NCBI RefSeq assembly: GCF_008389435.1
Contig: NZ_VUYS01000022.1
Location: 1 to 61,589, forward strand
Direction: 5' to 3'
Source: Candidatus Nitrosocosmicus agrestis
Lineage (GTDB): Archaea > Thermoproteota > Nitrososphaeria > Nitrososphaerales > Nitrososphaeraceae
DNA length: 61,589 nucleotides
A model generated the notes under the pieces. It was given only the letters and a program-made list of their open reading frames with translations, ran no database searches and had not been told where the DNA came from. Position numbers and translations under genes: made by a program. Below are positions 31,347-38,249 of this stretch, piece after piece (position 1 is the first letter of the stretch; the number at the start of each line of letters is the position of its first letter).

Positions 31347-32285
31347 TTAGAATGGCTCCTCATGTAACAAAGATGACAATAGAGCAGCTCGTAGTTCCTT
31401 TCCGTAAGAAGCCTGTTTAAAGTAAAGTGCATTCGGTGTACTATCAATTGATGGCGATATTTCATCCACACGTGGCAGCGGATGAAGTATGGAAATATCA
31501 GATTTTGATTTTGCCAAGATCTTTTCATCTATTGTATAGAGTCCCTGTATTTTGTTATATTCTTGCAAGTCAGGAAAACGCTCTCTTTGGATGCGAGTTA
31601 CATAAATAACATCTAATTTATTCAAGAGTTCATCAGATAATTCAACGTGATTATGCATATCCACCTTATTTGTAATATCATATATCGATTCGTCTCGAAT
31701 TTTCAATATTTCAGGCGATATTAGATGAATATTGACTTTGAAATTAGATAAAGCATAGATTAACGAATAAACAGTTCTTCCATATTTTAGATCTCCAATT
31801 ATCCCAATAGATAAACCATCAATTTTCTTCTTTTCTTTGAATATTGTATAAATATCAAGCATTGCTTGAGTAGGATGTTCCTCACTGCCGCTTCCCCCAT
31901 TTATTACGGGTTTATCTGATATCTCACACGCATATCTACTCGAACCATCAGATGGATGACGTACTAGTACCACATCGGAATAAAGAGAAATGGTCTTTAC
32001 AGTATCAGCATAACTCTCACCTTTCATGATTGATGAGGAATCCACATCAGAAATTCCTAATGAACGACCTCCTATAGAAGCCATTGCGGATTCAAAGCTT
32101 AACCTTGTTCTTGTGCTATATTCATAAAAAACATATCCAAGTATTAATCCTTTAGCTATTTCCCCTCGTTCTTTAGACTTTAATGTTTGAATCTTGTCCG
32201 TAATATCAAAAAGATACGAGAAATCCTCGGAATTAAAATCTCGGATGGAAACTACATTACGATTAAAGAACTTATTTTTAGCCAT
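31347..32285 (-). CDS. pyrB: aspartate carbamoyltransferase catalytic subunit
   Basis: Second enzyme of pyrimidine synthesis: carbamoyl phosphate plus aspartate to carbamoyl aspartate. Carbamoyl-phosphate loop STRTRLSFE (about 57-65), EEHPTQAMLD (about 135-144), and ILHPLPRVDEI (about 265-275) are intact. Length 312 aa is normal. The regulatory subunit gene pyrI, usually the next gene in archaea, is not found immediately downstream. It follows nrdJ by 63 bases on the same strand, so co-transcription is possible. Confidence 0.95.
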   Translation of the reverse strand: MAKNKFFNRNVVSIRDFNSEDFSYLFDITDKIQTLKSKERGEIAKGLILGYVFYEYSTRTRLSFESAMASIGGRSLGISDVDSSSIMKGESYADTVKTISLYSDVVLVRHPSDGSSRYACEISDKPVINGGSGSEEHPTQAMLDIYTIFKEKKKIDGLSIGIIGDLKYGRTVYSLIYALSNFKVNIHLISPEILKIRDESIYDITNKVDMHNHVELSDELLNKLDVIYVTRIQRERFPDLQEYNKIQGLYTIDEKILAKSKSDISILHPLPRVDEISPSIDSTPNALYFKQASYGKELRAALLSSLLHEEPF

Positions 32286-32348: not shown

Positions 32349-35111
32349 TTAGCCTGAACCGCAGCTACTAAACCCGCATTCTATGCACATGTTACAACCC
32401 TCAGTAATAATCAAAAAGTTCTTGCATACAGGACAAGACTCTTTATTATTTTCTACTCCCCTAGGTTGAGAGTTAAGGTACAAGTCGGTATTGGTATTAA
32501 TAGATATGCGACTGGATCCAAGAGTTTCGGATTTGGACGGAGCATTACCTTCATCGTCTGTGTTAATTCTGTGACTGTTGTTTATGTAGTCCTTGAATAT
32601 TGGCATGACTTGATCAAGTACATACGGTTCATGAATATTAGAAATAATGAAATCGTGCAAGTATTTACTAGGATAAACCTGGAACCTTTTTTCACGATCA
32701 TTTCCAGTTATGTGCAAGACTTGTTCATTCCTAGAGCCATCTCTATAAATAGTCACACCTTTTAATCCAAACTCATGAGCTAGGAGATATGCACACTTTA
32801 CATCTTCTACGGTAACGTCACCGGGCATGTTGATTGTCTTAGCAATAGCGTTACTAATCCATTTTTGCCATACAGCTTGAGCCATGATGTGATCGGTCCA
32901 ATGGATGTCAATCGCAGTAACAAATAGATCTTGCATCCATTGTGGGATTTCATCAATTCCACGAACGGATCCATAGTTATTTGCGATCTTTAATAATATT
33001 TCATCAGTATAAAGTCCATTTTCTTTTAGGGCTGACTCAAATATTTTATTTGTATAGAAGAATCTACCAACTGTTACACGTTTCTCAAATACCAAAGCAA
33101 AAACAGGTTCAACTCCATTGGACACATCAGCAATCATAGATAAGGTGCCTGTAGGTGCGATTGTTGTAGTCCAGGAATTCCTGATTCCATAATTTTTGAT
33201 TTTTCCTATCAAGGAGTCCCAATCATAACTATGAAGATCTTTAGGAATTTCATAGTATCCAGCTAACGGAATTTCACCTTTCTTATAGCTTGTTTTTTCA
33301 AACAATGGAAAAGCACCTCTAGATTTGGAGAGAACTACACTTTCATCCATGCTAAAATATGACAAGGTCTCGGCTAATTTGCTCATGAACTCATATCCTT
33401 CTTTAGAATCATATGGAATGCGCAACAAAAATAAAAGATCGGCAATACCCATAATTCCTAGGCCAATACGTCTTGTTAGTTTTGTATTGACATCAATTTC
33501 CTCCACTGGATATTTATTAACATCAATAACATTGTCCAAAAATCTTGTAGCAGTTCTTATAGATTGTTCATATTTAGGCCAGTCAAATTCATACAATCCA
33601 TCAGCCTTTCGTTTTACAAATTTTGACAAATTAATCGATCCTAGATTACATGACTCATATGGATACAGAGATTGCTCACCACAAGGATTAGTTGCCCTTA
33701 GAGGTCCCCCTTTAGCATCGATACAAGGATTGTATTGGTTAATATTATCAAAGAAGATTACACCGGGTTCAGCACTCTTCCAAGCGCTGAGAGCTATTAA
33801 CTCCATCAATTGATGTGAGTCGATATTTTTCATAGTTGCTTTAGTTCGAGGATTTTTCAATGGATAACGATGATCTTCTTTATTTACTAGTGATTTCCAA
33901 AAATCGGACCAAATTCCTACACTTACATTAAAGTTTTCATACATTCCAGGTTTAGTCTTCATTGTGATAAATTTTTCAATATCTGGATGCCACGATTCTA
34001 ATATACCCATGTTAGCTCCCCTGCGTTTCCCCCCTTGTTTAACTACATCAGTTATAGAATCAATTATCTGCATAAAGGAAGTTGGACCTGATGCAACTCC
34101 ACTTGTTGAAGCAACAATATCACCTTCAGGTCTAAGGTCAGAATAATTTATTCCAACACCACCTCCAGATTTGAATATCATTGCAGCATCGGTGGATGAT
34201 TTCATTATCGAATACATGTCATCAGGCATATCAAGTACAAAACATGCAGACAATTGACCCAGCCTGGCACCGGCATTCATAAGCGTAGGAGTGTTTGGAA
34301 GAAACTCATTTGAAACCATCAAGTTATAATATTCAAGCAAGCGATCTTGATGGTTAGCCATCTGACCTTCTGCAATTAATCGCAACAAATCCTTAAAACT
34401 TACTTTCATTCGTCCGAATTTTACTTCATCAATATATGCTCGAATAAGAGATTCAAAATGATATTTATTTAAGTAGTATTTTCCAATCTTTAATTTACTG
34501 TCAAAATCATCAACTTTATTATAATAATTTTCTGCCTCGGATATATTTTGGGAATAATTACCTTGAAAGTCATAGACACGTGGATCGTGTATAACATCAG
34601 AAATTGCAACTAAAATTGCAACTCTTTCAAATAATTGTTTTGGGCCCTCTGTTATCTCTCCGTTATTGTCCCTCAAAAGATACCTGGAAGAGAGAACCCG
34701 AAGCGAATTGATGTCGAGCGATTTGTCAACCTCGTCAAGATCCCTTTTGTTTAGGATCTTCATTTTAGTCTCCCTTAGTTTGCGTCTTTCATGACGATAT
34801 AAAATATAAGCCTTAGCAGTTTCAGCTAAACCTTCCTCAATTAATATAGATTCCACCATGTCTTGTACGTCTTCGACACTCAGTGCATGGTCTTTGTGAA
34901 TTGATTCTAGATAACCACTTTTAATAACTTTGTTAACTAACTTTGATGCAAGAAATTCAGCTAATTTATGATCGGGTTTACCAGCTGCAACCAATGCTTT
35001 ATAAATAGCATTTGAAATTTTAGATTGTTCAAAATCTACTATTGTACCGTTTCTCTTTTTAATATGTACAATTGTTTTGCTTTTTGACTCAGAAAGATCA
35101 GTTTCAGCCAT
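32349..35111 (-). CDS. nrdJ: adenosylcobalamin-dependent (class II) ribonucleotide reductase
   Basis: Makes deoxyribonucleotides using B12. From Met at 35111 it is 920 aa: an N-terminal ATP-cone (HIKKRNGTIVDFEQSKISNA), then the catalytic barrel with GQLSACFVLDMPDD (redox Cys), FKSGGGVGINYSDLRP, NPCGEQSLYPYESCNLGSIN (cysteine/glutamate active site) and APTGTLSMIADVSNGVEP. A C-terminal zinc ribbon (CPVCKNF, CNMCIECG) feeds electrons. The frame runs to an upstream ATG at 35195, but that leader is hydrophobic and a TATA-like ATATATAAAT lies within it, so I prefer 35111. The ATP-cone suggests allosteric control by ATP/dATP. Confidence 0.95.
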   Translation of the reverse strand: MAETDLSESKSKTIVHIKKRNGTIVDFEQSKISNAIYKALVAAGKPDHKLAEFLASKLVNKVIKSGYLESIHKDHALSVEDVQDMVESILIEEGLAETAKAYILYRHERRKLRETKMKILNKRDLDEVDKSLDINSLRVLSSRYLLRDNNGEITEGPKQLFERVAILVAISDVIHDPRVYDFQGNYSQNISEAENYYNKVDDFDSKLKIGKYYLNKYHFESLIRAYIDEVKFGRMKVSFKDLLRLIAEGQMANHQDRLLEYYNLMVSNEFLPNTPTLMNAGARLGQLSACFVLDMPDDMYSIMKSSTDAAMIFKSGGGVGINYSDLRPEGDIVASTSGVASGPTSFMQIIDSITDVVKQGGKRRGANMGILESWHPDIEKFITMKTKPGMYENFNVSVGIWSDFWKSLVNKEDHRYPLKNPRTKATMKNIDSHQLMELIALSAWKSAEPGVIFFDNINQYNPCIDAKGGPLRATNPCGEQSLYPYESCNLGSINLSKFVKRKADGLYEFDWPKYEQSIRTATRFLDNVIDVNKYPVEEIDVNTKLTRRIGLGIMGIADLLFLLRIPYDSKEGYEFMSKLAETLSYFSMDESVVLSKSRGAFPLFEKTSYKKGEIPLAGYYEIPKDLHSYDWDSLIGKIKNYGIRNSWTTTIAPTGTLSMIADVSNGVEPVFALVFEKRVTVGRFFYTNKIFESALKENGLYTDEILLKIANNYGSVRGIDEIPQWMQDLFVTAIDIHWTDHIMAQAVWQKWISNAIAKTINMPGDVTVEDVKCAYLLAHEFGLKGVTIYRDGSRNEQVLHITGNDREKRFQVYPSKYLHDFIISNIHEPYVLDQVMPIFKDYINNSHRINTDDEGNAPSKSETLGSSRISINTNTDLYLNSQPRGVENNKESCPVCKNFLIITEGCNMCIECGFSSCGSG

Positions 35112-35469
35112 ATAACATTTATATATTAAATATAGATCGCTTATATTAATTTCGATATTCATTTTACAATACAATGATGCAAATATTTTATCCAAAGGCA
35201 GGCAGGTGCATATAAGATGTACGATTGTTCAAGTTTAACCAAAGCAAATTAATGTGGTAGTATTGCCAGAAATGAGAACTGACTACAAATTATAATACTA
35301 TGATGATCACTATTTAGTCATAAAAATTCCATCACAACAAATCTGAAAGGATTTCGTGATCATTTACCTCTTTTAATGGCAAACTATCTACCAAAGAATA
35401 TATAGATGAATGCATTATCTCCAAATTCCATTCACAAAACAAATAGATAGATACAATGGAACTGAATAT
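35112..35469. other. promoter region between nrdJ and the NrdD-like fusion gene
   Basis: About 360 bases. On the minus strand TATTTAATATATAAAT (about 35117-35132) sits just before the nrdJ start, fitting a leaderless or short-leader transcript. The rest is AT-rich without a recognised gene. If the upstream fusion protein regulates nrdJ, its operator should be here. Confidence 0.4.
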
Positions 35470-37521
35470 TCAAACTATCTCAAGGATAGTACTAGATCCG
35501 CATGAATTACAAATACTGTCTGTGACATCGTGGCTCCCACAGGCTGAGCAAATTAGGTTTTTTTCAAATAGTTCAAAGTGAGAAATATTGTTGATAGTTT
35601 TGGATAAATAATCTGGAATTTCGTCTTCAGAAACATCAGAGACATCGAATTTGATATGTAATCCCCCAGTCACCAAGTTATCTAGTTCCATTATCTTCTT
35701 AAATAATGAATTTCCGTCATCAAACGCACTCTTTGTAATTGTTATTCCTTGTGAATAAGAGGTAAAGTCATGAGTTAGTTTGCCGAATTTATTAGAATCC
35801 AAATCAACAAATCTAGTAGAACTCGAATCATTAATCAAAGATACTCCAAATTTATGGGAGTTTGATTGATCGAAATTATAGAGTACATCATTGGCTGTTT
35901 TGATTACCTTTTTGATGACATCAAAACCATCGTCCCCAGAATATCCTAATATATCGTAAATACTCTCATTCAAGCCAGTAAGATTAACAACAATAGAAGT
36001 GGCACCTGTTAATGGATAACGAAAACCCTTTGATAGTGCAGGTAATAATTCTTGACGAATATTCTCAAGTAAAATCTCTTGTTTTAATATCAACGCGCTC
36101 GCAGAGGGTTTCATTATTAATGCCAATTTAGTTCTAAAATAAGTTTCATCCTTATTCGATTGGTACGCCAAACGAGGCAAATTTATGGATAATGAATTGA
36201 GCACCAAAATTGGATGTCCGGTATTTGCATCTATCTTACGTATACCATTAGAACTAAATATCGATTGTTGTGAAAGAGAGATTTTCCCACCATGTTTTAT
36301 AATTTTTCCTACTAAAGACAGAAGGTCCTTTGACAACATTTGCCCATGGTTCAAAAATAATCTAAAATGAGGTAGTGCTACATTTTCAATATATATTAAA
36401 TAACCATTTAATATTCCAGTCAATATTTCCTCATTTTCCTTTCCGGACAAAACCAAAGTGACTGATGGAAGATTCACTGTTTGCAATGAAAGTGTGGCAG
36501 AAAGTAAAGATAGTGAAAAATAATTGGAGATTTGATCCATGCGATATTCTGCAAAAATTTTTTCCACATTTTCCATTACAATTTCGCGTGAAACTTCTCG
36601 TTGCAATAATGAAATTAAGATAGGTATAATTAAATTTAGATTTCCCAAATTAAGAGTACGAGGTAAAAAGAGAAAATTACCTTTTAGATCAAAGTCCCTC
36701 TTGAGTTGCTCAACATCAACAAATACAATATCTGGACCAATTGCCCAATGTCCCAATGCATCAAGATGGATTTCACCACTATAGTGCATATCCAGTATAT
36801 CTTTTTGAAAGTTAGATGAGAAATAATCAGAAAGCACTTCTTGCGACAAATTGACTACGAGATCATGAATACCATTTTTGAGCCTGTCATCACTATTCTT
36901 AAGTTTTCTATTTAAATCAAAGATAGGAACGCCAATCCTGATTAATTTATTGACTTGTTCCTCTAACCCATGGTCAAGCAACACATTATTTACACAATCT
37001 CTTAATAGTCGTGACGTTAAATAAGAAGCCGAGAGCTTGTAAATTTTGTTTTCTACTTCCTCAGTAATTTTGGTTGCTTGTTCCAAAGACATATTCGCCT
37101 CCCTAACAAGACTTTGGATTATCTTGTGAGAATTAAATTCTTCAATTGTTTGATGACTTGTTCTAACATACATTTTGCCACTTTCAACAATAGACTTTTC
37201 TTCGATTTGCCTAGCCAAGTTCAAAACTAATTTACCAAGATTTGTGATAGTGTAACGTCTCTCTGCTTTATTCAAGCCAACAAGAGATTGCTTTAACAAT
37301 TTACGTAAATGATAAGCAAATTTTCCCGATTCTTTCTTTGACTTAAATCCAGCCAAAGATTTTAACTCAGAATATGTTAGCGGTCCTTTATTGTTAAGAA
37401 TACGTAAAATATCAATTCTATTTGGACTGGCCATAACTGAAAAGATCATTCTAACTCGCTTGGAGGTAGATTCCAAAACTCCGCGTTTAGCCTCAGAAGG
37501 GGGCAAGTAAGTAAACCTCAA
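35470..37521 (-). CDS. wHTH + ATP-cone + catalytically dead NrdD-like fusion protein
   Basis: A 683-residue fusion. Residues 18-105 are an ArsR-like winged helix (ASPNRIDILRILNNKGPLTY, SELKSLAGFKSKKESGKFAY). Residues 116-205 form an ATP-cone (YVRTSHQTIEEFNSHKIIQS). From about 235 to 650 the sequence follows class III reductase NrdD (YSGEIHLDALGHW; LSINLPRLAYQ; VNLTGLNESIYDILGYSGDD). Yet it has no cysteine from 177 to 657, so the catalytic Cys is gone. The C-terminal zinc site (Cys658/661/671/674) is followed by only nine residues, so the glycyl-radical loop is missing. It cannot reduce ribonucleotides. It is likely a nucleotide-sensing DNA-binding protein; nrdJ is the next gene downstream. 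Confidence 0.85.
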   Translation of the reverse strand: MRFTYLPPSEAKRGVLESTSKRVRMIFSVMASPNRIDILRILNNKGPLTYSELKSLAGFKSKKESGKFAYHLRKLLKQSLVGLNKAERRYTITNLGKLVLNLARQIEEKSIVESGKMYVRTSHQTIEEFNSHKIIQSLVREANMSLEQATKITEEVENKIYKLSASYLTSRLLRDCVNNVLLDHGLEEQVNKLIRIGVPIFDLNRKLKNSDDRLKNGIHDLVVNLSQEVLSDYFSSNFQKDILDMHYSGEIHLDALGHWAIGPDIVFVDVEQLKRDFDLKGNFLFLPRTLNLGNLNLIIPILISLLQREVSREIVMENVEKIFAEYRMDQISNYFSLSLLSATLSLQTVNLPSVTLVLSGKENEEILTGILNGYLIYIENVALPHFRLFLNHGQMLSKDLLSLVGKIIKHGGKISLSQQSIFSSNGIRKIDANTGHPILVLNSLSINLPRLAYQSNKDETYFRTKLALIMKPSASALILKQEILLENIRQELLPALSKGFRYPLTGATSIVVNLTGLNESIYDILGYSGDDGFDVIKKVIKTANDVLYNFDQSNSHKFGVSLINDSSSTRFVDLDSNKFGKLTHDFTSYSQGITITKSAFDDGNSLFKKIMELDNLVTGGLHIKFDVSDVSEDEIPDYLSKTINNISHFELFEKNLICSACGSHDVTDSICNSCGSSTILEIV

Positions 37522-37598
37522 TTAGAAAAGCAGTCTGATTATTAGTATATAAATAAAACTACTAGATGAAAGACTGCCAGGTTTGACTGCGGTATTTA

Positions 37599-38249
37599 TT
37601 AGCCTTCTAACAAAACTTGACCATTGTTTAAGATATCGTCTTTCAAATTAATAGAAGGTCTTTTAGAAATAACAGATACTGGAACCTCAGGCAGTTTCTC
37701 TTTTGCTTCATCTTCCAGACTATTTTGAACATCACTTAGTATGGCCAAGGCATCTTTATCGACAACAGATCCAACCTTGCCAGCATCAGCATCAATATTA
37801 GAATTGATTAATACATCCCCTGTCAAAGAATGGATTTCAGTCAGGACGTTGGTTGCTGAGGGCACAGCCTTTGAGAGATCCTTTTGTATATCTTGTAACA
37901 TTTCAACTGTAGGGTTAATAGTATCCATAATTGCTGAAAATTCGTTTATAGTGGTAAATCTAATTGCAACTACTTCTAATGCTAAACTTGCATTTTGAGT
38001 GTTCTTTCTAAGACGCCTCATAGCTGATAACTCGTTTGCTATAATATTGGCTCGAGCATTATTTCCCGTTTTTATATTTTGGGTTATTTTAGAGGTAAAA
38101 CTAGCATCAATGTTTGAAAATTTTTTGTCTATCATCCTAAGTTGTGAAATTTGTGTATTTATCACTGATACAGCACTATTCACGTCATAATACAATTGGC
38201 CACTTTTTTCCATCTCATGATTTGTATTCATAACATTTGTTAAAAACAA
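37599..38249 (-). CDS. CdvB-family (ESCRT-III/Snf7-like) protein
   Basis: A 216-residue helical protein of the archaeal cell-division ESCRT-III family. The long helices include ISQLRMIDKKFSNIDASFTS and NELSAMRRLRKNTQNASLAL, and the signature FTTINEFSAIMDTINPTVEM lies in the core. It lacks the C-terminal winged helix of main CdvB, so it is one of the paralogs. A short segment PEVPVSVISKRPSINLKDD in the tail may be a binding motif. The first Met codons (1, 7, 12) leave the start uncertain. Its likely role is membrane remodelling or division at the cell midline. Confidence 0.85.
   Translation of the reverse strand: MFLTNVMNTNHEMEKSGQLYYDVNSAVSVINTQISQLRMIDKKFSNIDASFTSKITQNIKTGNNARANIIANELSAMRRLRKNTQNASLALEVVAIRFTTINEFSAIMDTINPTVEMLQDIQKDLSKAVPSATNVLTEIHSLTGDVLINSNIDADAGKVGSVVDKDALAILSDVQNSLEDEAKEKLPEVPVSVISKRPSINLKDDILNNGQVLLEG

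Follow-up and report, generated by a model that had tools for sequence, protein, structure and literature searches.

A class III ribonucleotide reductase that has lost catalysis and carries a winged helix is a candidate regulator of ribonucleotide reductase genes in Thermoproteota

The ammonia-oxidising archaeon Candidatus Nitrosocosmicus agrestis encodes a protein in which a winged helix and an ATP-cone precede the body of a class III ribonucleotide reductase (RNR) that has lost its catalytic residues. Our preferred explanation, to which we give a probability of roughly two in three, is that a class III RNR (NrdD) died and was turned into a nucleotide-responsive transcriptional regulator of an RNR gene, early in Thermoproteota. 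In ammonia oxidisers, the protein is probably the switch for an adjoining gene that encodes a working RNR. The case draws on the domain architecture, the NrdD fold, lost catalysis, separation from NrdD in a tree, purifying selection acting on the winged helix, repeated placement next to RNR genes of more than one class, and absence of the repressor NrdR.

The DNA analysed, hereafter the window, is a stretch of 61,589 nucleotides. The gene of interest is a single open reading frame, with a TTG start, at positions 35470..37521. It is on the minus strand, as are the window features given below in the form start..end, and encodes 683 amino acids. A previous sequence-only reading had recognised a winged helix, an ATP-cone and an NrdD-like body in one chain, and both Pfam and Foldseek bear this out. 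The winged-helix domain (residues 22-113; 37183..37458) was detected by Pfam at residues 26-100, with matches to DUF7347 (E 2.9e-10) and HTH_20 (E 2e-6), and its columns are near-invariant in ammonia-oxidising archaea. The ATP-cone, with the motif VRTS..EEFN..KI in the alignment, covers about residues 117-195 (36937..37173). Here, PF03477 matches residues 117-191 with an E value of 5.6e-11 and 43.3 bits, against a gathering score of 25.8. The NrdD-type barrel body (residues 196-657; 35551..36936) was assigned from Foldseek and from our table of catalytic columns, in which it has none of the catalytic residues. Pfam places an NRDD match at residues 441-678 (E 2.5e-16). Note that this alignment stops at profile position 531 of 562, short of the glycyl-radical end, and that the protein scores under the NCBIfam NrdD cut-off. 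Finally, C658, C661, C671 and C674 form a zinc ribbon (35500..35550). The only other cysteine is at position 176. The cysteine-free stretch at 177-657 is hence exactly as first described, as are the end of the chain nine residues past C674 and the missing glycyl-radical loop.

Two AlphaFold models were generated, from 35 sequences (mean pLDDT 76) and from 60 homologs (mean pLDDT 86). The fold comparison proposed with the sequence-only reading returned an NrdD fold: for both models, the first 35 PDB matches found by Foldseek were all class III RNRs. The best E values were 8.2e-20, for the 35-sequence model, and 5.3e-19, for the 60-homolog model with S. thermophilus 9dca. The T. maritima, phage T4 and P. 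copri class III RNRs follow 9dca in the list, and class I RNR and glycyl-radical enzymes are far lower than class III RNR. The modelled N-terminal block (pLDDT 85-95) also has a winged-helix fold, with helices and wing strands at 81-84/89-92.

Residue roles in class III RNR are described for P. copri NrdD, where Cys416 is the initiator, Cys171 the second cysteine and Gly711 the radical site, alongside an NxN flap and an HxHD motif (PMC11226230). We aligned these columns in 74 family members, comprising 14 from ammonia oxidisers and 60 further members (loci L106-L125 and L131-L170, of which only L124 and L125 come from ammonia-oxidiser families). The alignment included 11 working NrdDs that adjoin some of the members. 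The second cysteine is present in 0/74 members, and cysteine occurs in the initiator columns of 1/74 and 4/74. The NxN flap, mostly deleted, is found in 0/74 and the second histidine of HxHD in 1/74. Zinc-site cysteines, by comparison, are retained in 70/74. All 11 adjoining NrdDs keep the catalytic residues, bar one with an incomplete C-terminus. The sequence-only reading had proposed loss of the cysteine and the radical glycine. Neither an intact cysteine nor an intact radical loop, either of which would have refuted that reading, was found in close homologs.

To define the family, we searched a genome collection, and 80 of the 303 relatives returned were kept. These are 43-72% identical, and nearly all carry the label of ammonia-oxidising archaea or of the orders these belong to; two have bacterial labels and are possibly misbinned contigs. 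The architecture was found in all ammonia oxidisers examined. At least 80 genome contigs encode full-length homologs and, of 300 Thermoproteota genomes sampled, 216 have a profile match, including every listed genome of the window's order. Hence, the architecture is not a product of chance. The sequence-only reading was right about the domains themselves but too narrow, since they define a phylum-wide family and not one isolated oddity. Members outside the ammonia oxidisers are 550-860 amino acids long, as open frames, and match NRDD over nearly its full length, with E values down to 2.9e-85. These near end-to-end matches bridge the window protein's own weak similarity. In a tree, winged-helix proteins and NrdDs fall on opposite sides of one branch with support of 1.0, and this single split fits one conversion rather than repeated ones. 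The tree also rules out a neighbouring nrdD as recent source, or copy, of the winged-helix gene by duplication. In the window's genome, the only NRDD match is the winged-helix protein itself.

On the same strand of the window, the gene that follows is nrdJ (32349..35111), the putative target. Its product is a class II RNR (NCBIfam TIGR02504, E 6.2e-224) that likewise has an ATP-cone. The nrdJ start is probably the ATG at 35111, 358 bp past the end of the winged-helix gene, and not the TTG at 35195; the conserved MAET start and a TATA-like box favour this choice. The adjacency pointed out in the sequence-only reading proves to be conserved, with the winged-helix gene directly upstream of nrdJ, on the same strand, at 67 of 80 ammonia-oxidiser loci. 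Among the other 13, 10 lie less than about 600 bp from the end of their contig. At L028, L038 and L041, nrdJ was not found downstream despite 1.5-6 kb of sequence. Beyond the main ammonia-oxidiser set, nrdJ follows at three loci (L106, L124 and L125), and nrdD follows at eleven, in three families. Across the phylum, pyrB (aspartate carbamoyltransferase; 31347..32285 in the window) is a frequent, convergent neighbour, and several lineages hold an RNR gene between pyrB and the winged-helix gene. This is nrdJ in Nitrosocosmicus (the window), L124 and L125, and nrdD at several loci of other families. No RNR gene adjoins at around three quarters of non-ammonia-oxidiser loci, many of which have pyrB there. 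These RNR-less loci, and the three ammonia-oxidiser loci with no nrdJ, count against a regulator of RNR genes. Directly upstream, at window positions 37599-38249, is a Snf7/CdvB-like (ESCRT-III) gene. It is kept there in Nitrososphaeraceae and was not found in the same place in Nitrosopumilaceae.

The enzyme beside the winged-helix gene appears exchangeable. At loci L111 and L131, which come from close relatives, the winged-helix proteins are 95% identical and the downstream NrdDs only 27% identical, falling in different NrdD clades of the tree. We conclude from this contrast that the slot received a different RNR gene and that the winged-helix gene remained. The L131-type NrdD groups with NrdDs such as that of L204, from the family that places nrdR beside nrdD. 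A profile search did not find NrdR in the genome of L131.

Logically, a regulator of RNR genes invites comparison with NrdR, the bacterial RNR repressor. Both proteins pair an ATP-cone with a separate DNA-binding domain, both are linked to RNR genes, and both are expected to sense nucleotides. However, NrdR has around 150 amino acids and reads DNA with an N-terminal zinc ribbon. The window protein would instead read DNA with an ArsR-like winged helix; its zinc ribbon lies at the C-terminus and corresponds to the structural site of NrdD, and it carries an entire reductase body. With NrdD (PF13597, TIGR02487) the protein shares the fold, the order of ATP-cone, barrel and zinc ribbon, and common ancestry. 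Unlike NrdD, the family has an extra winged helix, lacks the active-site cysteine, NxN flap and radical glycine, and forms a separate clade. The protein therefore resembles NrdR in outline and is not an NrdR; it descends from NrdD and is not, by any catalytic feature, an NrdD. Archaeal ArsR-like proteins (HTH_20, HTH_5, DUF7347) have a similar N-terminal winged helix of around 80 amino acids. Here, though, it is fused to an ATP-cone and a dead NrdD, and has no metal-sensing cysteines.

A search for nrdR, suggested with the sequence-only reading, found no NrdR (TIGR00244) in the window's genome, and the window protein itself does not match TIGR00244. Among 300 sampled genomes, NrdR was above cut-off in 22, all from one family, with nrdR adjoining nrdD in the cases compared. 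This family carries NrdR together with the winged-helix pseudo-NrdD protein, which weakens the regulator reading. NrdR was reported in 2022 to be rare among archaea (PMC9110341). The window's genome also encodes two stand-alone ATP-cone proteins of around 135 amino acids (L082:1477-1881 on contig C6 and L084:1465-1875 on contig C2), in which no further domain was recognised. As they lack both a zinc ribbon and cysteines, we rejected a reading of them as NrdR-like proteins. The step from reductase to regulator, the central idea of the sequence-only reading, has thus gained in part. In its favour are the NrdD fold, family-wide catalytic loss, an intact winged helix and ATP-cone, the absence of NrdR, and the link to RNR genes.

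On this basis we infer DNA binding, a target, a ligand and a mechanism for the regulator. The winged helix would bind the promoter of the RNR gene and probably that of its own gene. The ATP-cone, possibly with the old allosteric (specificity) site at the NrdD dimer interface, would read ATP/dNTP status. A change of dimer or oligomer, driven by nucleotides, might then switch DNA binding, much as dATP shifts the oligomeric state of NrdD and NrdR. By analogy with NrdR, the protein is more likely a repressor, and high dATP would favour repression. In the window's genome the main target would be nrdJ, directly downstream and with its own promoter; elsewhere, it would be nrdD. Note that the ATP-cone has VRTS where the usual motif is V-x-K-R-D/N-G. 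This counts against the regulator reading and casts real doubt on the ligand. The doubt is softened because the same motif is found in at least one archaeal NrdD, that of L118, which is apparently functional.

We inspected promoters for candidate operators. The winged-helix gene has a TATA-like box, TTTTATTTATATA (37546..37559), that is invariant in Nitrosocosmicus relatives. Upstream of nrdJ, a block of around 60 bp (35112..35173) is conserved in alignments of the same relatives and includes a TATA-like box (35116-35130). The nrdJ gene has a conserved promoter of its own. The block also has an inverted repeat, ATCG(35136-35139)-N13-CGAT(35153-35156), which is a candidate operator only. A spaced-word search of the winged-helix and nrdJ upstream regions found no motif common to the three ammonia-oxidiser clades. 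In Nitrosopumilaceae, TGATC is strongly over-represented, with 135 sites against 36 expected upstream of the winged-helix gene, and 120 against 24.5 expected in the gap between this gene and nrdJ. In a 400-kb sample of one genome, these two were the densest of the intergenic regions with several TGATC sites. That both promoters hold such clusters supports regulation of nrdJ by the winged-helix protein. Conversely, TGATC clusters were not found in promoters of Nitrosocosmicus, Nitrososphaera, deeper lineages or non-ammonia oxidisers. Since the sequence is missing from the window's clade, and no motif spans all clades though the winged helix hardly differs, we claim no operator. This is the main gap in the regulator reading. 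A second motif, GTGTYAA-N5-TTGA, is conserved upstream of nrdJ in Nitrosopumilaceae; we rejected it because, genome-wide, it shows no enrichment compared with the reversed pattern as control. Several Nitrososphaera (L016, L021, L025 and L056) have a 16-bp palindrome, TTGACCTTTTGGTCAA (or TTGACCAAAAGGTCAA), upstream of the winged-helix gene, which may be a terminator or an operator.

The same TGATC clusters raise the possibility that the protein regulates S-phase genes broadly, for dNTP synthesis and replication, with the RNR gene as one member of the regulon. Briefly, across 1.6 Mb of one Nitrosopumilaceae genome, the six strongest non-coding clusters include the region upstream of the winged-helix gene, the gap before nrdJ and the divergent rfcS/gins51-mcm promoter. 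The element in the latter is conserved in 32 of 33 Nitrosopumilaceae. Such promoters have 27.7 TGATC sites per kb (35 promoters, with two deeper relatives included) compared to a background of 2.1. The near-invariance of the winged helix also suggests many sites or partners. However, absence of the clusters from Nitrosocosmicus, and all deeper lineages, means they may belong to another factor. An OB-fold gene, considered as a further target, was discarded because its TGATC promoter is not conserved. Genome-wide, raw cluster counts are modestly over those in a reversed-sequence control (76 against 57). We keep the clusters as a lead only, and regard this broader role as unlikely. The GATC-rich element of the rfcS/gins51-mcm promoter, aattagGATCAAtTGATCt.Ac.aaaTtGT.AAcAgAATTGATCGATCc, is found at L218:6037-6140 (genome G114), L291-L294 and L351-L378. 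It may be the signature of a replication regulon or of control by GATC methylation.

The winged helix is the part of the protein under greatest constraint. Compared with its counterparts in other ammonia oxidisers, the window protein shows 92-97% identity over residues 22-121, against 65-93% in the ATP-cone region and 31-64% in the body. In the winged-helix part, only 26-59% of third codon positions match, a pattern indicating strong purifying selection. Positions invariant across the family include R35, G66, F68, H71, Y90, T93, G96, R120, T169, R174, W259, N447, P449, D575 and the four zinc cysteines. Pseudoenzymes are often regulators of their active relatives. By this precedent, the dead NrdD body might act at the protein level, pairing with a working RNR or buffering nucleotides for it, with the winged helix being autoregulatory only or a module for protein-protein contacts. 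The body retains its fold and zinc site, and gene adjacency fits a partnership as well as it does regulation. Yet the partner is a class II RNR at some loci and one of unrelated class III types at others, which is hard to square with a specific interface, and conservation is highest in the winged helix rather than in the body. Action of this kind is improbable.

That the protein is an active reductase, or another glycyl-radical-type enzyme with unusual chemistry, is very improbable. The NrdD fold and zinc site would fit, as would the glycine that 5/74 members have in the radical column. However, in none is this glycine combined with an initiator-column cysteine. Moreover, aligned ammonia-oxidiser members are missing the entire glycyl-radical loop, and their sole fully conserved cysteines are the four of the zinc site, invariant in 79/79 sequences. 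Activity is hence contradicted by the sequence. At L113:422-2989, L146, L147 and L164, the glycine sits in a stretch resembling the radical loop (RQDGRYQ, TRVYGRYK) and the cysteines are gone; such distant members are possibly intermediate stages of loss. A decaying relic would explain the lost catalytic residues but is scarcely credible, being refuted by a winged helix that is near-invariant while third codon positions are randomised, by the 79/79 zinc cysteines, and by presence in every listed genome of the order.

We return to a dead RNR turned regulator. A wider version, in which one ancient conversion gave a large part of Thermoproteota its main sensor of dNTP status, is tentative and has somewhat less than an even chance. 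As an independent counterpart of NrdR, the protein would control whichever RNR fills the slot and, in Nitrosopumilaceae, perhaps rfcS, gins51 and mcm. BirA, PutA and NadR are transcription regulators derived from enzymes that sense ligands with an enzyme fold and have kept their activity. In the window family, by comparison, the enzyme is dead and the presumed target encodes the same reaction. If correct, this is a clear case of an enzyme that came to regulate the reaction it once catalysed, the regulator remaining in place through several exchanges of the target enzyme. In the open-licence papers searched, we found no description of a winged helix, ATP-cone and dead NrdD in one protein, nor of how dNTP supply is controlled in archaea without NrdR. 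The family is a concrete candidate for this role in ammonia-oxidising archaea and many uncultured relatives. Some members have additional sequence not seen in the window protein: at L036, L044, L069 and L070, all from Nitrosopumilaceae, there is an Asp-rich, repetitive N-terminal extension (DLDADLDSDLD...).
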